Shown here piece by piece: positions 4,512 to 26,212 of a stretch of DNA of 64,000 nt; the stretch's first letter is position 1; the number at the start of each line of letters is the position of its first letter. Both the position numbers and the translations under genes were made by a program. The notes under the pieces were generated by a model that saw only the letters and a program-made list of their open reading frames with translations, made no database searches and was not told where the DNA came from. Source of the DNA: Yersinia massiliensis CCUG 53443 (GTDB taxonomy: Bacteria; Pseudomonadota; Gammaproteobacteria; Enterobacterales; Enterobacteriaceae); the NCBI RefSeq assembly GCF_000312485.1, contig NZ_HE997648.1, forward strand, positions 111,834-175,833. Reading direction: 5' to 3'.

Positions 4512-7010
4512 ATGAAATACAATTCAAAAAGAAAAGAGATGATCTTTCGGATGGTGCGAATATTTGTATTGGCAGGCATGGGTCTATTTTTGCCTCAATG
4601 GGCTGAGGCCGTAGAATTTAATACCAATATTATCGATGCAAAAGATCGCGATAATATCGATCTCTCTCGATTTGAAGTTAGTGATTACACCCCACCAGGG
4701 AATTACTTGCTCGATGTTTTTATTAATGGTCGATTATTACCCAATAGTTATTTAATCACTTATTTACCTATTGATGAGGGAAAATCAAGCAGAGTATGTC
4801 TGTCCCCAGAATTAGTTGACCAATTAGGTCTATCCCCCGCTGTGCGTGAGTCACTGACATTATGGCACGACGGTCAATGTGTTGCTCTTGATGAAAAAGA
4901 AGAAATAACCGCAACCTACGATAAAGAGAAGCAATATTTAATTATTTCCATCCCGCAGGCTTGGTTGGCTTATAGTGATCCGAATTGGGTGCCACCTTCA
5001 CAATGGGATAACGGTGTGACGGGTGCACTATTAGATTACAACCTTTTTGGCAGTCGCTATGCACCGAAACACGGTGATAGTTCGACAAACTTTAGTAGCT
5101 ACGGAACGGCGGGGGCCAATATGGGTCCATGGCGTATTCGTGCTGACTACCAATATATTAATAATGAAACTAGCGGTTCGCAATACAGCAACTTTAACTG
5201 GTCGCAAGTTTATGCTTTTCGCGCCATCCCTTCGATAGGGGCTAAATTTGTCGGGGGCCAAACTTACCTGAGCTCCAGTATTTTTGACTCATTTCGTTTT
5301 CTTGGCGCATCGCTTTCCAGTGATGAGCGCATGCTGCCACCGACGATGCGCGGCTACGCGCCTCAGGTCATCGGGATTGCGCGGACCAATGCCAGAGTGG
5401 TGTTGAGCCAGAATGGCCGTACGCTTTATCAAACCAATGTTGCGCCGGGTCCCTTTGCTATTCAGGATATTAGTGAAGCGGTACAGGGCAATATTGATGT
5501 TCGAGTTGAAGAGGAAGATGGTCGAGTCACCACTTTCCAGGTTAGTGCTGCGACAGTGCCATTTTTAACCCGAAAAGGGGCTATTCGCTATAAAACGGCG
5601 TTGGGCCGCCCAACGCAGGGCAGTCATAACTCGGTTAGTGACCCCAACTTTTTCAATGGTGAGGTGTCGTGGGGGGCATTTAATGATGTTTCCTTGTATG
5701 GCGGGCTGATAGCGACATCACAGGATTACACTGCCGTTGCTTTGGGTGTCGGACAGAACTTGCATGAATTTGGCGCATTGTCTGTCGATGTGACGCACTC
5801 GCGCGCTCAGTTACCCAACGAAGCGAAAAAAAGCGGCGAAAGTTATCGCGTTAACTATTCCAAACGTTTTGATCAGACCAATAGTCAGATTACGTTTGCC
5901 GGATACCGTTTCTCGGAAAAGAATTTCATGAGCATGAACCAGTATCTGGATCAGCTCAATAATAATGATTATCTACAAAATGATAAGCAGACATACACCG
6001 TTACCGCTAACCAGTACTTAGCGTGGCCAGATATCACGATGTATCTCTCGGCAACCCATAAAACGTATTGGAATGATGCTTCCAGTAATAACTACGGTGT
6101 TTCTGTGAGCAAAATATTCGATATTGGTGAATTTAAAGGAATTTCGGCAACGCTTTCTGCCAACAAAGTGAAATACCAATACGAAAATGAGAATCAGGTT
6201 TTCTTCTCATTCAGCCTGCCCATTGGGACGGGGCAGCAAGTGAGCTATGACGCGCAGCACGATAAAAACAATGGCTACTCGCAAAACGTTTCTTATTTCA
6301 ACAGCCAAGATCCACGAAATATTTGGCGAGTCAGTGCCGGTGGTGCCAGCCCAGAAGTGCAACAAGGGAATGGCGTTTTCCGTGGTGGATATCAGCACCG
6401 CTCTCCTTATGGTGAGTTTGGTATTGATGGTAGCCATAAAAATAATGAATACAACTCAGTGAATACTAACTGGTACGGTTCGATAACGGCGACAGCCCAC
6501 GGTATTTCCGCTCATCAAAACAAATCAGGTAATGAGCCACGGATAATGATCGATACCGGTGATGTTTCAGGCGTGTCTCTGAATAATAATTCCGCAATGA
6601 CTAACCGATTTGGTGTTGCGGTTGTGAATGGCATTACAAGCTACCAGCAGTCAGATGTTCGAGTCGACGTACAAAGTTTGCCGGAAGATATTGAGGTTTA
6701 CAGTACGGTTATTCAAAAAACGCTGACTGAAGGAGCGATAGGCTACCGAGAAATAAGAGCGGTAAAAGGCCAACAAATTATGGCCATTATCCGCCAAAAA
6801 GAGGGCAGCTTCCCACCATTAGGCGCATCGGTTATTGCCGATAAAAATGGTGCAGAGGTGGGTATTGTCGGTGACGGTGGATTAACTTATTTAGCTGGAT
6901 TAGAAGAGAGCGGAAACTTAACCGTTCAATGGGGCAAGCAGCAGTGCAAGATAGTCTTACCGAAAAATAGTGACATGAATTCAGGAAAGATTTTGCTTCC
7001 ATGTCAGTAA
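4512..7010 (+). CDS. Fimbrial outer-membrane usher (FimD/PapC family)
   Basis: This 832-residue usher has the expected family length. A signal peptide (about 1-33, ending 'AEA') precedes the N-terminal chaperone-binding domain ('VEFNTNII...IDLSRFE'). A central 24-strand beta-barrel region follows, with the usual motif-rich stretch 'FVGGQTYLSSSIFDSFRFLG' and the plug region around 'GYAPQVIGIA'. The C-terminal domains carry a cysteine pair (C-terminus 'KILLPCQ'). It forms the secretion pore that takes chaperone-subunit complexes and assembles the pilus. It lies between the pilin and chaperone genes, an order of subunit, usher, chaperone, adhesin that differs from E. coli fim (chaperone before usher). 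Confidence 0.93.
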   Translation: MKYNSKRKEMIFRMVRIFVLAGMGLFLPQWAEAVEFNTNIIDAKDRDNIDLSRFEVSDYTPPGNYLLDVFINGRLLPNSYLITYLPIDEGKSSRVCLSPELVDQLGLSPAVRESLTLWHDGQCVALDEKEEITATYDKEKQYLIISIPQAWLAYSDPNWVPPSQWDNGVTGALLDYNLFGSRYAPKHGDSSTNFSSYGTAGANMGPWRIRADYQYINNETSGSQYSNFNWSQVYAFRAIPSIGAKFVGGQTYLSSSIFDSFRFLGASLSSDERMLPPTMRGYAPQVIGIARTNARVVLSQNGRTLYQTNVAPGPFAIQDISEAVQGNIDVRVEEEDGRVTTFQVSAATVPFLTRKGAIRYKTALGRPTQGSHNSVSDPNFFNGEVSWGAFNDVSLYGGLIATSQDYTAVALGVGQNLHEFGALSVDVTHSRAQLPNEAKKSGESYRVNYSKRFDQTNSQITFAGYRFSEKNFMSMNQYLDQLNNNDYLQNDKQTYTVTANQYLAWPDITMYLSATHKTYWNDASSNNYGVSVSKIFDIGEFKGISATLSANKVKYQYENENQVFFSFSLPIGTGQQVSYDAQHDKNNGYSQNVSYFNSQDPRNIWRVSAGGASPEVQQGNGVFRGGYQHRSPYGEFGIDGSHKNNEYNSVNTNWYGSITATAHGISAHQNKSGNEPRIMIDTGDVSGVSLNNNSAMTNRFGVAVVNGITSYQQSDVRVDVQSLPEDIEVYSTVIQKTLTEGAIGYREIRAVKGQQIMAIIRQKEGSFPPLGASVIADKNGAEVGIVGDGGLTYLAGLEESGNLTVQWGKQQCKIVLPKNSDMNSGKILLPCQ

Positions 7011-7121
7011 GGTAAAATTACTTTGAAATTTGACTCATTATTTCCAGCGTTTGACCGAAAACTAAGATTGATGACAATTTTTAATCACAGCATAGCCGTA
7101 AAAATTAGAGTGAAATAGAAC

Positions 7122-7889
7122 ATGAAAAATATGAATAACCCTACCTGTACCCGAAAAAACGGGCCATTGAGTACCGCCTTGGTCGGCGTCACATTATTGT
7201 TGACCTCCCTAGTGAGTGAGGCCGCGATAAATCTGGATCGCACGCGGATTGTTTTTAATGATACTGACAAATCTGCCAGTATTATTTTGGTGAACCAGAG
7301 TACTACTTCCCCTTATCTGGCGCAGTCTTGGATAGAAGACAGTGCAGGGCAGAAAGTGGATAGTCCGCTGGCGGCATTACCGCCGATGCAACGAATCGAT
7401 GCCGGGCAAAAAAGTCAGGTTCGCATAATGAAGCTCGCTGACGTCAGTAAACTACCGACGGACCGTGAAACATTATTCTATTTCAATGTGCGGGAAGTGC
7501 CGCCGAAAAGTGATATGTCTAATGTGGTACAAATTGCTATCCAAAGCAGAGTGAAATTATTTTACCGACCGTCAGCAATCAAAGCGGATTACAACAATGT
7601 CTGGCAGGAAAAATTACAACTCACTAAGCAAGGTGAAAGCCTCAAAATCAATAACCCGACGCCGTATTACATTACGTTGGGCTATTTAAGTCAGGACAAT
7701 CGCGGCAATTTCCCGGGCTTCGATAGCGTTATGATTGCGCCTTTTGGCACCGAGACGGTTAAGACGCCAGGTTACAGTGGTAGCCATTACACCATTGGCT
7801 ATATGGACGATTTTGGTGGCATGAAAATGCGCACGTTTAATTGCTCTGCGGTCGATTGCCAAATTCAGCCCGCTGAAAAGAAAAAATAA
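7122..7889 (+). CDS. Periplasmic fimbrial chaperone (PapD/FimC family)
   Basis: The 255-residue chaperone has a signal peptide ending near residue 34 ('SLVSEA') and two immunoglobulin-like domains. The family signature region is visible in 'TRIVFNDTDKSASIILVNQ', in 'PLAALPPMQRIDAGQKSQVRI' (the subunit-binding F1/G1 region) and in 'ETLFYFNVREVPPKS'. It donates a strand to subunits and delivers them to the usher encoded upstream. The 111-base gap after the usher contains no obvious terminator. The C-terminal tail ('QPAEKKK') is lysine-rich. Two cysteines (in 'TFNCSAVDCQ') could form a disulfide near the C-terminus. Confidence 0.92.
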   Translation: MKNMNNPTCTRKNGPLSTALVGVTLLLTSLVSEAAINLDRTRIVFNDTDKSASIILVNQSTTSPYLAQSWIEDSAGQKVDSPLAALPPMQRIDAGQKSQVRIMKLADVSKLPTDRETLFYFNVREVPPKSDMSNVVQIAIQSRVKLFYRPSAIKADYNNVWQEKLQLTKQGESLKINNPTPYYITLGYLSQDNRGNFPGFDSVMIAPFGTETVKTPGYSGSHYTIGYMDDFGGMKMRTFNCSAVDCQIQPAEKKK

Positions 7890-10575: not shown

Positions 10576-10610
10576 CTCGAGAGGAATATCTGCCGGTCAC
10601 CGATCGAGCA

Positions 10611-11930
10611 TTAACCGAAGATATAGCGGTTAACTTGATTTTCCAGTAACTCCTGATGACCGCTTTGGTGACGAGGATTCAGATTTTGTTGAGCAGCATA
10701 ACGCGCCAGATCTTCTAGCGACATTTTCCCTTTCAGAATCTGTTGGCCCAACTCAGTGCTCCAACCGGCATAGCGCTTGGCAACTTGTTGATCTAATTGG
10801 CCATCTTCAATCATTTTGGCGGCAATTTTCAGTGCCAATGCCATGGTATCCATCGCCCCAATATGACCGTAGAACAAGTCATATTTATCCGTACTTTGGC
10901 GGCGCACTTTGGCATCAAAATTCAAGCCACCGGTGGTAAAACCACCTGCCTTGAGAATTTCGAACATCACTAGCGCATTTTCTTCCACGCTGTTTGGGAA
11001 CTGGTCGGTATCCCAACCCAATTGTGGATCGCCACGGTTAGCATCGACGGAACCGAAAATACCCAATGCAATCGCACTGGCAATCTCATGATGGAAAGAG
11101 TGCCCAGCCAAGGTGGCATGGTTGGCTTCAATGTTAACTTTAATCTCTTTTTCCAGCCCGAACTGCTTGAGGAACCCGTAAACCGTTGCGACATCATAAT
11201 CGTATTGGTGCTTGGTCGGCTCCTGCGGTTTTGGCTCGATCAGCAGCGTGCCTTGGAAACCAATTTTATGCTTATGCTCAACCACCATCTGCATAAAGCG
11301 GCCAATTTGCTCACGCTCTTGGCGTAAATCGGTATTTAGCAGGGACTCATAACCTTCACGGCCACCCCATAACACATAGTTTTCGCCGCCGAGTTTTTGC
11401 GTTGCATTCATGGCAGTGAAGACTTGGGTTGCCGCCCAACTGAAAACTTCGGGATCTGGATTCGTGGCAGCCCCTGCACCATAACGTGGGTGGGTGAAGC
11501 AGTTAGCGGTGCCCCATAATAATTTTACGCCGCTGCTTTCTTGTTTCTCAGCCAATACATCGGTCATGGCGGCAAAATTACTCAGATACTCTTTTAAGGA
11601 TGCGCCTTCAGGTGAGACATCCACATCATGGAAGCAGTAGTAAGGCACATTGAGTTTATGGAAAAACTCAAAAGCGATATCGGCTTTGTGTTTTGCCAGC
11701 GCGAGTGCATCGCCGGGTTGTTGCCATGGGCGATCAAAGGCATTACTGCCGAACATATCGGCTCCGCCCCAGCAGAAGGTATGCCAGTAACAGGCCGCGA
11801 ATCGTAGGTGGTCGGCCATACGCTTACCAAGGATAATTTCATCCGGATTGTAGTGATGAAACGCCAATGGATTAGCGCTTTGGCTGCCTTCGTAACGCAC
11901 TTGTTCTAATTCATCAAAATAAGATTGCAT
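10611..11930 (-). CDS. xylA: Xylose isomerase
   Basis: This class II xylose isomerase has 439 residues (E. coli 440). It converts D-xylose to D-xylulose in the cytoplasm with divalent metal. The catalytic His101 and Asp104 are present in '[12 protein letters not shown]', and the metal-binding '[16 protein letters not shown]' and '[16 protein letters not shown]' regions are intact. It is the first gene of xylAB and is transcribed divergently from xylFGH across a 378-base regulatory gap. Confidence 0.97.
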
Positions 11931-17634: not shown

Positions 17635-17729
17635 GGAAGATCATCGTCCCCGGTGGGGCGGCTGGACTTCAAATCCAGATGGGGCCGCCAGCGGTCCTCG
17701 GCAGGTTCGACTCCTGTGATCTTCCGCCA
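17635..17729 (+). tRNA. selC: tRNA-Sec (selenocysteine), anticodon TCA
   Basis: This 95-base tRNA is nearly identical to E. coli selC as I remember it. It starts GGAAGATCATCG and ends CTTCCGCCA with CCA encoded. It has the long 8-bp acceptor stem, a long variable arm and the UCA anticodon at 17669-17671 within CTTCAAA. It inserts selenocysteine at UGA. selC is a classic island integration site (LEE and SPI-3 sit there in other enterobacteria), and an accessory region begins directly downstream here. Confidence 0.98.
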
Positions 17730-17910: not shown

Positions 17911-18939
17911 ATGACAGATAAATACTTAACCCAATCCCCGGCAGGCGAATTTGTTATGTTTGCCAGCGGTGATGGAAAGGTGCGCGTTGAATGCCGCTTT
18001 GAAAGCGATACCCTGTGGCTATCCCAGGCGATGATCTGCGAACTGTACGGCAAAGCTAAAGCGACTATCAGCGAACACATAAAAAATATCTTTGCAGAAG
18101 GTGAGCTGATCGAAAATTCAGTTGTTCGGTTTTACCGAACAACTGCCAGTGACGGGAAAAATTATCAAGTTCAATATTTTAGCCTGCCGTTGATACTCGC
18201 AGTTGGCTACCGCGTCCGTTCCCCTCGCGGCACCCAATTCCGCCAGTGGGCGACCCAAACGCTTCAGGAATATCTGATCAAAGGCTTCGTGATGGATGAC
18301 GAGCGGTTGAAAAATCCGCCGGTGGGTTCATCCGCAGTACCCGATTACTTTGATGAGATGCTGGAGCGTATCCGTGATATCCGTGCCAGCGAGCGTCGGG
18401 TGTATTTGCGGGTTCGGGAGATTTTTGCCTTAGCTGCCGACTATCAACCTTCACTGAAAGAAACCACGCAGTTTTTTCAAACCATCCAGAACAAGCTGCA
18501 TTTCGCCTGTACCGGCCACACTGCTGCCGAACTTATCTATCAGCGTGCTGACGCCAGCCAACCCCATATGGGGTTGAGCAGTTATAAAGGTGAAGAGGTG
18601 CGTAAAAACGATGTGACGGTGGCAAAAAACTACCTAAACCAAAACGAAGTTGGTGAGCTCAACCGCGTCGTTAACATGTGGTTGGATTTCGCTGAAGATC
18701 AGGCACGGCGGCGTCAACAGGTTTTCCTGCGTGACTGGCAGGATAAGCTGGATCAGTTTCTGCAATTCAACGATCGTGAGGTTCTACAAGGGGCTGGCAC
18801 GGTCAGTAAGAAAGTGGCCGATGAAAAAGCGCAGGCGGAATATAGTCAGTTTGCCGAGCAACAACGGCGCTTAAAAGAAGCCGAAGGTGAGAAGGATATT
18901 GCTAGTTTGCTACAGTGGAAAAAAGAGCCTAAAAAGTAA
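17911..18939 (+). CDS. rhuM: RhuM family protein
   Basis: This 342-residue protein is of the RhuM type, whose founding member is encoded in Salmonella pathogenicity island 3 at selC. The N-terminal part ('VRVECRFESDTLWLSQAMICELYGKAKATISEHIKNIF') looks like a DNA-binding or phage antirepressor-like helix-turn-helix segment. The C-terminal half includes 'GHTAAELIYQRADASQPHMG', resembling the C-terminal domain of RhuM-type proteins, and ends in a charged, helical tail. A clear ribosome site 'CGGAGG' precedes the ATG. The biochemical role is not established. The position directly after selC matches SPI-3. Confidence 0.85.
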   Translation: MTDKYLTQSPAGEFVMFASGDGKVRVECRFESDTLWLSQAMICELYGKAKATISEHIKNIFAEGELIENSVVRFYRTTASDGKNYQVQYFSLPLILAVGYRVRSPRGTQFRQWATQTLQEYLIKGFVMDDERLKNPPVGSSAVPDYFDEMLERIRDIRASERRVYLRVREIFALAADYQPSLKETTQFFQTIQNKLHFACTGHTAAELIYQRADASQPHMGLSSYKGEEVRKNDVTVAKNYLNQNEVGELNRVVNMWLDFAEDQARRRQQVFLRDWQDKLDQFLQFNDREVLQGAGTVSKKVADEKAQAEYSQFAEQQRRLKEAEGEKDIASLLQWKKEPKK

Positions 18940-19049: not shown

Positions 19050-19060
19050 CGACTCCTGTG
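19050..19060 (+). other. Possible decayed attachment-site copy of the selC 3' end
   Basis: CGACTCCTGTG at 19050-19060 is identical to bases 17708-17718 in the T-arm region of selC. Eleven bases is short, and the match does not extend into the acceptor stem, so this is only a candidate for a degraded right attachment site of the element that brought rhuM. Confidence 0.2.
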
Positions 19061-19145
19061 TCAGGTTACATCCACAAATGCGGCCCTTTTCGCATTCGCA
19101 AAAATGTTTGTCCTAATTTACTACTGGCTAATTGAACAGTAGGGA

Positions 19146-19364
19146 ATGGCCGGATATAGTGCCCCCGCAGCGGCAAAATCTGCTGCCGGGTTTAGCAGCC
19201 TGAGACAAAACAGAGCGCACAACCGTGTAGGCGGTTACTATGTGCGGGTACAGTTACACCTAAGAAAAATCAATGGTGGGCTGGACGGGGGCATCGCAAG
19301 ATGCGCCGGGTTCTCTGTTGACCGGTCTGCTAACCCTGTTCAGTCCACCACCCAAAGGGATTAG
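19146..19364 (+). CDS. Small ORF in P4-like leader (Ash-like, doubtful)
   Basis: This is an open frame of 72 codons with an N-terminus 'MAGYSAPAAAKSAAGF' reminiscent of small proteins annotated as Ash family in P4-like satellite prophages. It overlaps completely the RNA segment with P4-type complementary motifs, so the frame could be a by-product of a structural RNA. No strong ribosome site precedes it. I list it because homologous frames are commonly annotated at such loci; real translation is uncertain. Confidence 0.35.
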   Translation: MAGYSAPAAAKSAAGFSSLRQNRAHNRVGGYYVRVQLHLRKINGGLDGGIARCAGFSVDRSANPVQSTTQRD

Positions 19365-19368
19365 CAGC
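19188..19368 (+). ncRNA. P4-like cI RNA immunity locus (seqA-seqB-seqC-type motifs)
   Basis: Three short motifs are arranged as in the immunity region of satellite phage P4: GGGTTTAGCAG at 19188, CTGCTAACCC at 19327-19336 and GGGATTAGCAG at 19357. The middle motif is complementary to both outer ones over ten bases, with one bulged base in each case, so they can form mutually exclusive stems. A second pair, CCACCACC (19345-19352) with GGTGGTGG (19373-19380), allows another alternative fold. In P4 the processed cI RNA uses such pairing to force early termination of the left operon and gives immunity. The motif logic is seen here; the transcript and its processing are inferred. Confidence 0.6.
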
Positions 19369-19410
19369 TCTTGGTGGTGGGATAAAACCATCAACTGAGA
19401 GGTTGTCATC

Positions 19411-19509
19411 ATGAATTCGACGACTACAGCCCACAGCAACATCGTTGTTCTTTGCCTGCCAGTATCATTAGCCGCCACTCTCTCGCTGGAGGTGCAACAT
19501 GTACGATAA
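19411..19509 (+). CDS. Small ORF downstream of the P4-like leader
   Basis: A 32-codon frame beginning 'MNSTTTAHSNIVVLCLPVSL' follows 'GAGAGGTTGTC', an acceptable ribosome site. It overlaps the start of the next small gene by 11 bases, which suggests translational coupling of two small proteins right after the RNA immunity segment, where P4 carries small genes such as kil. The middle is hydrophobic. No function can be assigned. Confidence 0.45.
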   Translation: MNSTTTAHSNIVVLCLPVSLAATLSLEVQHVR

Positions 19510-19684
19510 GACGCCTCGCGAGTTAGAAGAAGTCATTGATCACTGCCGTGCGCTGATTTACGCCATCGTCACACTCGAATCGCAGGAAGTGAAAGAAATA
19601 CTCAACTTTGTTTTATGGCAGCAAATAGATCTACTGCACCAAACCTATCAGCGGGATCTAAACGAAGCGCTCGTGGCAGCTTAA
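19499..19684 (+). CDS. Small P4-satellite-like protein of unknown function
   Basis: The 61-residue, largely helical acidic protein ('MYDKTPRELEEVIDHCRALI') starts inside the preceding small ORF after 'GGAGGTGCAAC', a strong ribosome site. By position it corresponds to the small genes following the cI RNA in P4-type satellites. Its last 24 codons and the following terminator are duplicated almost exactly at 20502-20609, on the far side of the toxin-antitoxin genes. I do not recognise a function. Confidence 0.6.
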   Translation: MYDKTPRELEEVIDHCRALIYAIVTLESQEVKEILNFVLWQQIDLLHQTYQRDLNEALVAA

Positions 19685-19719
19685 CTCCGCTATGTAAAAA
19701 GGCATCGTCAGATGCCTTT
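19612..19719 (+). repeat. 108-bp direct repeat, copy 1 (3' end of small gene plus terminator)
   Basis: This segment is repeated in direct orientation at 20502-20609 with three substitutions in 108 bases. It covers the last codons of the 61-residue gene and its terminator. The two copies bracket the toxin-antitoxin pair. Confidence 0.95.
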
Positions 19720-19720
19720 T
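19697..19720 (+). terminator. Rho-independent terminator of the small P4-like operon
   Basis: AAAAGGCATC, the loop GTCA and GATGCCTTTT form a perfect stem ending in a T-run 13 bases after the stop codon. The same terminator appears in the second repeat copy near 20586-20609. Confidence 0.85.
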
Positions 19721-19732
19721 CTGCAATGATTT

Positions 19733-19771
19733 ACTCATCAATAAATGAGTTGATACTCCTACAGGGTAGGA
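19733..19771. promoter_or_regulatory. Candidate operator palindromes of the toxin-antitoxin operon
   Basis: Two inverted repeats lie between the upstream terminator and the toxin start: ACTCAT-N6-ATGAGT (19733-19750) and TCCTAC-AGG-GTAGGA (19757-19771). Toxin-antitoxin pairs of this kind repress themselves by binding such palindromes. The assignment is by position only. Confidence 0.5.
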
Positions 19772-19820
19772 CTAATATTATCTCAGCCTAAGTAAAGGTG
19801 ATGTCAAGGATGACTACGTA

Positions 19821-20156
19821 ATGGATTTTTTACAGTTCATTGAAACTCCGTTCTTTTCTAAGCAACGGGAAGTATTACTTACCGAAGATGAGTTCAGGGA
19901 GCTTCAGCAAGTCTTGTTATTAAACCCATCTTCGGGTGCATTGATTGTCGGCACCGGCGGTGTGCGAAAGGTAAGATTTGCTATCGGTCAGAAAGGGAAA
20001 CGTGGTGGTGTTCGCATCATTTATTACTATCAAGAACCACAAAGCAGGATATGGCTTTTTACTGTCTATCCTAAAAATCAAAAAGATACACTGACGAGTA
20101 GTGAGAAACAGCAATTCAAAGATGTGATAATACAAATCAAAGGGAGTATGGCATGA
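19821..20156 (+). CDS. RelE/HigB-type toxin
   Basis: The 111-residue protein has the RelE/ParE-superfamily toxin fold seen in HigB2: N-terminal 'FIETPFFSKQREVLLTEDE', then 'NPSSGALIVGTGGVRKVRF', the core 'GKRGGVRIIYYYQ' and the terminal strand 'IWLFTVYPKNQKDTL'. Relatives cut mRNA on the ribosome. The toxin gene comes first and overlaps the antitoxin gene by four bases (ATGA), the higBA-like order. Two palindromes precede it. The module is bracketed by 108-bp direct repeats, so it probably entered an older P4-like relic. Confidence 0.88.
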   Translation: MDFLQFIETPFFSKQREVLLTEDEFRELQQVLLLNPSSGALIVGTGGVRKVRFAIGQKGKRGGVRIIYYYQEPQSRIWLFTVYPKNQKDTLTSSEKQQFKDVIIQIKGSMA

Positions 20157-20440
20157 GTGATTTTTTCAATGATTTAATGACATCCGCGAAACAGGCTGTC
20201 GCCATTAGTCATGATGAATTAAAGGCGGGTAGAGTCACTGAGGTTGCTATCCCTGATGTAAAAGAAATTAGAAAAAAAACAGGGTATAAGCAAAAAGACT
20301 TCGCGCTCCTTGTGGGTGTGAGCCTTTCGTTGGTTGAAGCATGGGAGCAACATAGAAGAATTCCATCAGGCAGTTCACTCAAGCTATTGGTCATGATTGA
20401 TCGGTATCCTTCCCTGATTAATGAGCTTTCAGGAATTTAG
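20153..20440 (+). CDS. NadS/HigA-type antitoxin (XRE HTH)
   Basis: The 95-residue antitoxin has a C-terminal Cro/C1-type helix-turn-helix ('IRKKTGYKQKDFALLVGVSL', then 'VEAWEQHRRIPSGSS') preceded by a variable N-terminal arm ('MSDFFNDLMTSAKQAVAISH'), the plan of NadS and HigA2 antitoxins paired with RelE/HigB2 toxins. It should bind and neutralise the toxin and repress the operon through palindromes upstream. It overlaps the toxin by four bases. Confidence 0.88.
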   Translation: MSDFFNDLMTSAKQAVAISHDELKAGRVTEVAIPDVKEIRKKTGYKQKDFALLVGVSLSLVEAWEQHRRIPSGSSLKLLVMIDRYPSLINELSGI

Positions 20441-20484: not shown

Positions 20485-20574
20485 ATGATCGACGAAAATT
20501 GTTTATGGCAGCAAATAGATCTACTGCACCAAACCTATCAGCGGGATCTGAACGAACCGCTCGTGGCAGCTTAA
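20485..20574 (+). pseudogene. 5'-truncated second copy of the 61-residue P4-like gene
   Basis: A short frame ('MIDENCLWQQIDLLHQTYQR') ends with the same 24 codons as the gene at 19499 but has a new six-codon start. It is the coding part of the second 108-bp repeat, followed by the duplicated terminator. With two residue changes and no real N-terminus it is best seen as a duplication scar. It could still be translated from ATG 20485, although no good ribosome site is visible. Confidence 0.6.
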
Positions 20575-20609
20575 CGCCGCTATGTAAAAAGGCATCGTCA
20601 GATGCCTTT
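20502..20609 (+). repeat. 108-bp direct repeat, copy 2
   Basis: This is the second copy of the segment at 19612-19719, with 105 of 108 bases identical. Sequence before and after the two copies is unrelated, so the ends of the duplication are sharp. The distance between copies is 890 bases. Confidence 0.95.
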
Positions 20610-25387: not shown

Positions 25388-26212
25388 CTATTTGTCGCCC
25401 AACTTTTTGGCTGCAGTTTCAATCTGTTTGATGCTCTGTTCTGGTACTGGGAGATTTTCTGGCATTGTCCCCCCAAGCTCTTTGATTGTCTGCCTTACTT
25501 TCCTGCCTACATCGAAATGCGTTTGGTTTGCCTGCTGTTTCGAATTAACCTGATCTCTGATTAACTTCTCTTCCGCTTGAGTTGCTCTAAATAGGTTTGC
25601 CGCAAGTTCCGTTGACCCCATGTGATCTAAGATTTTTTGGCTCTTTTTTAATCCCTTTCGCTGGTGGATTGCTTTCTGGTCTAAGCCACCATACAAACCT
25701 TGGTAGCCATGATTTTGGAATATGGCAAAATCTAATCCGGTTTCGACGCCAGCCTTTTGTGCTACCTCGACTAACTGTTTGTTATGTTCCTTTAGTTCAC
25801 TTCTAAGAAACAGACGCTTTTCATCTTCGCGTAGTCGTTTGAAAGTTTCATCATCGGCCAGTTCTTGACGTCTAGTCTGGATTGCAAAGTATGTTTGCCC
25901 AGCCGCAATAACTGGCTTACTAGGATCACCATTCTGTACAACGAGATAACATGCATATCGGGATAAATGAACGTCTTCCAGCTCCCGTTGGGCACTGGAC
26001 CCCAGCACAACCATTTTGGTGGCCTCAACGAAATGGTCTGCTACCTCTAGGTTACTGGCTTCACAGGCTTGTGCTGCTCTGGATAAAACATTCTGAAAGT
26101 TCCTCCAATCTTTATAATCCAGCAAAGGAGCCAAATCTCTTGCAGACCAATATTCTTGTCCTTCATTTCCGTATTCCCGTAAATCCTCGAATGGTTGGTG
26201 ATGCTCGTTCAT
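25388..26212 (-). CDS. dinD: DNA damage-inducible protein D
   Basis: The 274-residue protein has the same length as E. coli DinD and the same N-terminal Bro/antirepressor-like domain ('EYWSARDLAPLLDYKDWRNF', 'DVHLSRYACYLVVQNGDPSK'), with a charged helical C-terminus. DinD is an SOS protein reported to act against RecA filaments. As in E. coli it lies next to yicC, so this may be the far border of the selC region or an old neighbour. Unexpectedly I find no CTG-N10-CAG LexA box in the 120 bases upstream of the start. Confidence 0.9.
   Translation of the reverse strand: MNEHHQPFEDLREYGNEGQEYWSARDLAPLLDYKDWRNFQNVLSRAAQACEASNLEVADHFVEATKMVVLGSSAQRELEDVHLSRYACYLVVQNGDPSKPVIAAGQTYFAIQTRRQELADDETFKRLREDEKRLFLRSELKEHNKQLVEVAQKAGVETGLDFAIFQNHGYQGLYGGLDQKAIHQRKGLKKSQKILDHMGSTELAANLFRATQAEEKLIRDQVNSKQQANQTHFDVGRKVRQTIKELGGTMPENLPVPEQSIKQIETAAKKLGDK

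Follow-up and report, generated by a model that had tools for sequence, protein, structure and literature searches.

What might an RNA switch of the P4 kind be doing in a place where the genes that such switches normally control are missing? The question is raised by a locus next to the tRNA gene selC of Yersinia massiliensis CCUG 53443, in a stretch of 64,000 nucleotides referred to here as the window. The original prediction regarded this locus as the remains of a P4-type immunity module that had outlived its prophage and might still protect the host from related satellites. The analysis described below leads to a somewhat different reading, which we consider probable: the C4 locus is complete, likely the last piece of a selC island, and most likely a stand-alone switch that would keep a small gene, orf61, unexpressed. 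This explanation rests on three Rfam matches, an exact three-way complementarity, the fixed edges of the unit and a copy of it in an intact island of another Yersinia genome.

The three short motifs from which the prediction started are present where it had placed them, on the forward strand as are the other elements of the unit: seqA (b1), GGGTTTAGCAG, at 19188-19198; seqB (b'), CTGCTAACCC with the core CTGCTAA (TTAGCAG when cores are compared), at 19327-19336; and seqC (b2), GGGATTAGCAG, at 19357-19367. SeqB is the reverse complement of seqA and of seqC, with one extra, bulged base in each outer motif, and the duplex energies predicted in context are -22.3 kcal/mol for seqB/seqA and -20.6 kcal/mol for seqB/seqC. 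The second alternative pair is there as well: a', CCACCACC (19345-19352), lies in the predicted closing stem of the C4 RNA and is complementary to a2, GGTGGTGG (19373-19380). A bare triple of this kind is nevertheless not beyond chance, as dinucleotide shuffles produce it with 7-mers in 14 of 2000 cases (0.7 %) and with 6-mers in 230 of 2000. The arrangement was therefore set aside as proof in itself, and it is the covariance models that decide.

The covariance-model search that the prediction had proposed settles what the motifs are. With cmscan and Rfam, c4-a1b1 (RF03163, 48.2 bits, 19154-19206), an overlapping isrK-type leader RNA on the seqA side (RF01394, 58.7 bits, 19167-19241) and the C4 antisense RNA itself (RF01695, 19269-19355) are found in the expected order on the forward strand, each above its gathering score. 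The C4 match reaches 85.2 bits against a cut-off of 45 (E-value 2.3e-15), and the fold predicted for the segment has -46.1 kcal/mol (z -5.4). As a positive control, the P4 record gives 74.9 bits for C4 and 60.8 bits for isrK in its cI/eta region. Since the same two models match both, the window and P4 fall into one RNA family, and the analogy with the seqA/seqB/seqC logic of the P4 cI RNA holds. Passages of PMC10111431 present the two profiles (C4 and isrK) as detecting relatives of P4 CI and seqA, and IsrK is called a structural homologue of P4 seqA in PMC4825925.

Whether the motifs are conserved as complementary sets was one of the points on which the prediction had staked itself. The sample comprised 173 C4 places in 71 genomes: 52 from Yersinia (of 53, one below the cut-off being excluded) and 121 from other genera, the latter being among the matches listed and mostly from genomes with several C4. 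In this sample, with its 121 places among the matches listed, the 7-nt core of seqB is exactly matched in both seqA and seqC at 155 of the 173 places, a count slightly favoured by picking the core as the best of four offsets; a further six places match seqA only, three seqC only and nine neither. The Yersinia places taken alone show both exact pairings at 40 of 52. There are 26 different cores among the 164 places with at least one exact match, so that complementarity is kept while the sequence changes; the refutation foreseen by the prediction, motifs that fail to persist as complementary sets, did not come about. Foreign cores fitted both sides in none of 27,886 trials, even in a second control that had the same freedom of four offsets. 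Predicted duplexes over 25 cores agree: cognate means are -15.0 (A) and -10.9 kcal/mol (C), non-cognate means -7.8 and -4.4 kcal/mol, and among 600 non-cognate A pairings only 8 are as strong as the cognate median. The pairing of seqA, seqB and seqC is thus real. With a covariance model above its cut-off and a seqB that is complementary on both sides with covariation, the observation of these motifs of a C4 antisense-RNA locus is confirmed, and the window RNA by itself is unexceptional within the known C4 family. The c4 specificity of phage P1 is not that of P7, and the three-way covariation seen here extends this known principle.

What is less ordinary is what surrounds the RNA. The unit to which it belongs (19065-19719) is made up, in this order, of a promoter-like site, seqA, C4, seqC, a leader ORF, a 61-aa ORF and a hairpin. 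The predicted sigma-70 promoter, TTGAAC-17-TATAGT (19132-19160), stops 7 nt upstream of the isrK match and its sequence is kept in the aligned copies; the consensus scan finds 5 promoter-like sites in the region for 3.0 expected, which makes the site weak evidence when taken alone. The two small overlapping ORFs that the prediction had pointed out are a leader ORF of 32 aa (19412-19510), which occupies the place of kil in P4, and orf61 (19499-19684); they share 12 nt, the stop of the leader lying beyond the start of orf61, and a ribosome-site-like GGAGGT precedes the latter. As for the strong terminator that it had named, a hairpin with a U-rich 3' arm is present at 19697-19720 (-14 kcal/mol, z -4.6); the consensus scan did not list it. 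We consider that it is likely a terminator.

As in other members of RF01695 (c4 of P1 and P7, cI RNA of P4), the sequence and structure model is accompanied by an upstream seqA-type leader, a downstream seqC and a small ORF behind it with an overlapping start. However, where P1 has icd/ant and P4 has eta-epsilon-alpha, the window has orf61 and the hairpin. Thus the P1-type immI arrangement is not seen, as no icd/ant lies behind the unit and a RelE/HTH gene pair and a pectate lyase gene follow it. The IsrK-orf45-anrP region of Salmonella Gifsy-1 likewise combines an isrK-type leader with a small overlapping ORF, but it includes an antirepressor gene and none is found behind the window unit. No account of the C4-orf61 unit was found among the open-licence papers searched, and novelty is confined to this stand-alone setting of the RNA.

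The product of orf61 belongs to phrog_16030 (E 2.1e-27) and has no Pfam match at the cut-off; the leader ORF has neither a Pfam nor a PHROG match. AlphaFold2 models orf61 as a helical hairpin (helices 7-25 and 29-60, mean pLDDT 82.5). Its best Foldseek hit among viral models has an E-value of 0.21, with none at 0.001, and tblastn against phage records returns no match at 1e-5. The ORF is found in 14 of 25 Yersinia genomes, and relatives outside the genus occur in Morganella, Moellerella, Providencia, Brenneria, Dickeya and Pectobacterium; the Yersinia pestis relative (P0104) is distinct from that of the window (P0007), at 83 % over 85 %.

Conservation of this ORF bears on a first alternative, in which C4 would act as an RNA antitoxin to a harmful orf61, so that the unit would be kept by addiction while it moves between islands. 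Orf61 has 17 invariant columns in 23 sequences, and a C4 lies within 300 nt upstream of 25 of its 26 matches in the genus, the exception being a partial copy in the window. The unit also recurs in front of unlike neighbours, and according to passages of PMC8198154 and PMC10111431 P1 Icd and P4 Kil, whose genes also follow RNAs of the C4 type, block division or are lethal. A kinship of orf61 with P4 Eta or Kil was considered and dropped, since there is no recognisable similarity (blastp E 9.6). Moreover, two loci (L264 and L265) have an orf61-like segment between C4 and a primase gene, a position that suits a replication helper equally well. Addiction therefore seems to us an unlikely explanation. 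The gene order in these two loci is AlpA, C4, an ORF ending in the orf61-like segment (in L264 the ORF has 176 aa and matches phrog_16030 over residues 119-164, E 2.3e-10) and the primase gene. They resemble the window in the C4, the leader ORF, the orf61-like segment and their order, and differ from it in that the primase gene overlaps the end of the ORF and the core is TTGGCGT. From this we infer that the C4-orf61 unit was cut from an operon of the type AlpA, C4, orf61-like, primase.

In Yersinia the unit behaves as a block with fixed edges. In blastn comparisons with 28 stretches, relatives begin at 19065-19074 and end at 19719; the edges are seen in L061-L067, L069 and L076, the right edge recurring in L061, L062, L064-L067, L069, L076 and the second copy of L063. 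DNA relatives occur in 14 of 25 Yersinia genomes. Beyond the right edge the neighbours change: a pectate lyase gene in L061, AbiE genes in L062, L065, L066 and L076, a convergent P4-type integrase in the second copy of L063 and in L064, L067 and L069, and the RelE/HTH pair in the window, the first copy of L063, L068 and L070. A match to P4-type integrase or alpha is missing from the flanks of 14 of 25 C4-orf61 copies, some of which lie at contig ends, so that an island setting is seen for 11. Locus L063 carries two copies in direct orientation (6544-7199 and 10599-11244) with different cores; between them lie the RelE/HTH pair, a Fic gene and a fragment of alpha. A single unit could be stranded if copies arranged in this way recombined.

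The region from selC (17635-17729, forward strand; tRNA-Sec by ARAGORN, Rfam 80 bits), an island attachment site, to yicC holds a RhuM gene (17911-18939), an att-like scar, the C4 unit, the RelE/HTH pair, the pectate lyase gene and then three more genes, for an NAD-binding protein, an isochorismatase-type protein and a Bro-N protein. The scar, CGACTCCTGTG (19050-19060), repeats 11 bases from the 3' end of selC and closes the RhuM block 4 bases upstream of the C4 unit. In genome G021 (L104) a RhuM block with a piece of P4-type integrase lies behind selC and ends at the same scar, and the motif also bounds the intact island in L062. The RhuM block would thus be a separate small insertion placed in front of the C4 unit. 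The RhuM gene also matches the PADLOC candidate models PDC-S05. The Bro-N gene (25388-26212, phrog_8036) has a counterpart, 79 % identical at the protein level, next to the selC satellite in G015 (L091) and is perhaps another selC-island leftover.

On the other side of the unit, a 108-bp direct repeat (97 %) formed by 19612-19719 and a partial copy of the unit's 3' end at 20502-20609 flanks the RelE-type toxin gene (19821-20156) and the HTH gene (20153-20440). This bracketing looks like recombination between unit copies. Control of the pair by C4 was considered and set aside because of the intervening hairpin and the promoter-like site of the pair itself (19750-19778). The insert is absent from the sister genome G014, where the unit meets the pectate lyase gene with the same junction, some 30 kb behind selC, and an integrase is still present. 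Beside that C4 unit (L061, 6483-8156) lies a 557-aa ORF that by eye has the look of a CdiB-type transporter.

The best model of the parent element is the island in L062 (genome G008). Its unit is 84.8 % identical to that of the window, has the same core and lies at the same tRNA gene, in the order selC-int-AlpA-alpha-Fic-[C4-orf61]-AbiE (AbiEi/AbiEii), between two att copies 10.4 kb apart (17063 to 6652). The island encodes a P4-type integrase, AlpA, an alpha-type primase 41 % identical to P4 alpha and an opposed Fic gene; it has no second C4, and P4 sid, delta and psu find no match in it. Its C4 unit lies beyond alpha and the opposed Fic gene, that is, not in front of alpha, and would therefore not block replication as in P4. 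Compared with this island, the window lacks a match to integrase, AlpA and alpha, and has RhuM before and RelE/HTH after the unit.

Yersinia does have selC elements that look like true P4-like satellites. In G010, G015 and G022 they comprise integrase, delta, sid, AlpA/vis, eta with C4, orf106 and alpha; psu has no match in the three, in agreement with a survey in which Yersiniaceae elements without psu were found (PMC8628076). The window unit shares with these satellites (L081, L091 and L094) the attachment site, related integrase and alpha types and the C4 RNA. However, their C4 lies within eta before alpha and they match sid and delta, whereas the window unit is followed by orf61 and a hairpin and the window has no set of integrase, AlpA and alpha with sid, delta and psu, of which L062 itself has only the first three. 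The comparison with intact P4-like elements that the original prediction had called for goes against it at the level of the code: their cores are GTGAGAA, GTAGGAA and GTGGAAA, and the 12 Yersinia places with cores of this satellite type are all unlike the TTAGCAG of the window. In G022 a P4-like satellite and an island of the L062 type stand in tandem behind selC (L094 and L065), with the cores GTGGAAA and TTAGCGT, both different from the window's TTAGCAG; the integrase of the second island matches in two pieces.

The absence of sid and delta, the placement of C4 and the core of the L062 type together assign the window unit to islands of the L062 kind rather than to the satellites. Of the claim that the locus is a P4-like relic, the origin from a mobile element at selC with loss of its other genes thus stands, while the parent seems to have been an island type other than a P4-like satellite. 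The description as the relic of a selC element is supported, and the window unit probably remains from a mobile element that has been lost from this site. The missing genes had been correctly reported: at E 1e-3 the window shows no match to any of ten P4 proteins, namely alpha, sid, delta, psu, epsilon, eta, orf88, orf106, orf151 and part of the integrase (bases 1-2999 of the P4 record lying outside this set). The host genome as a whole has this one C4 locus and, elsewhere, two full-length P4-type integrase matches.

The same evidence bears on the immunity question. If the locus came from a genuine P4-like satellite and its C4 (cI) RNA still protected the host against such satellites, this would account for the RNA families shared with P4 and for the P4-type integrase, AlpA and alpha of the selC relatives. 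P4-like satellites use selC in the genus (G010, G015 and G022), and the host lacks a full alpha gene, its one match spanning 70 residues at 40 %. However, the closest intact island has no match to sid, delta or psu and its C4 is not before alpha; satellite-type cores are unlike that of the window, and the window seqB pairs weakly with GTAGGAA targets (predicted -9.0 and -4.5 to -4.7 kcal/mol) compared with those of L062 (-14.5 and -16.3 kcal/mol). Furthermore, same-core loci share genomes freely. We therefore regard protection against P4-like satellites as very improbable, and the window RNA would probably target its own kind of unit, not such satellites in general. The original interpretation is supported in part, and the RNA-only defence that it proposed would be no more than a possibility.

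The idea that C4-mediated exclusion of same-core elements would be visible in genomes was dropped, as same-core pairs are not depleted. They account for 20 of 178 pairs within genomes against 11.1 expected (probability of at most the observed number 0.994), in a test that used 164 places, left out the nine without exact pairing, drew on 121 non-Yersinia places among the matches listed, which favour multi-C4 genomes, and relied on a 7-nt core that is possibly too coarse. The figures are 7 of 45 (6.0 expected) in Yersinia and 13 of 133 (8.0) in other genera, or 2 of 9 (2.8) for P4-type cores and 18 of 104 (8.1) for the remaining cores. Same-core loci thus coexist at least as often as expected by chance, and the genomes give no sign of exclusion.

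Could the unit simply be silent and slowly decaying? Most of the element is gone and the position is an orphan one. Moreover, nine C4 places, one each in L068, L070, L072, L073, L083, L084, L260, L169 and L170, have no exact 7-nt partner on either side; these are probably decayed copies, which indicates that C4 relics do decay. The window, however, keeps the promoter-like hexamers, the three motifs, both ORFs, the hairpin and, ahead of orf61, the GGAGGT. The unit is also retained in G014, where 19 of 655 sites differ, none of them within 19259-19394 (a stretch chosen post hoc), and three of the four differences in orf61 fall at third codon positions. A dead relic is accordingly doubtful.

This leaves the stand-alone switch as the explanation that we favour. 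Rho-type termination and RNase P processing operate in P1- and P4-type systems. By analogy with P1, P4 and Gifsy-1, transcription would start near 19167, and processing of the transcript would release a C4 RNA some 85 nt long. The seqB loop of this RNA would then pair with seqA and seqC of its own or of another transcript, and this pairing would stop translation of the leader ORF and terminate the transcript before orf61. In trans, only units with the same core would be silenced; for some TTAGCGT copies the predicted energies are -11.7 and -11.8 kcal/mol, so that between TTAGCAG and TTAGCGT weak cross-talk would be expected at most. The most likely job of the RNA would thus be the silencing of orf61, in cis and for same-core copies. 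A more far-reaching version, to which we give little credence, is that of a portable RNA-controlled unit, cut from a replication operon, closed by a hairpin and passed from island to island in Yersinia with its own code, whose stranded copies would silence newcomers of the same code.

The setting is the less usual aspect of this locus: the replication or antirepressor genes governed by such a switch in P4 and P1 are absent, and the unit recurs with fixed edges. With the 26 seqB cores as a simple code, it may be predicted which elements would silence one another. Should stranded copies of this sort be expressed, protein-based searches for defence systems would miss some of the resistance of a strain to mobile elements, namely that residing in RNA genes.
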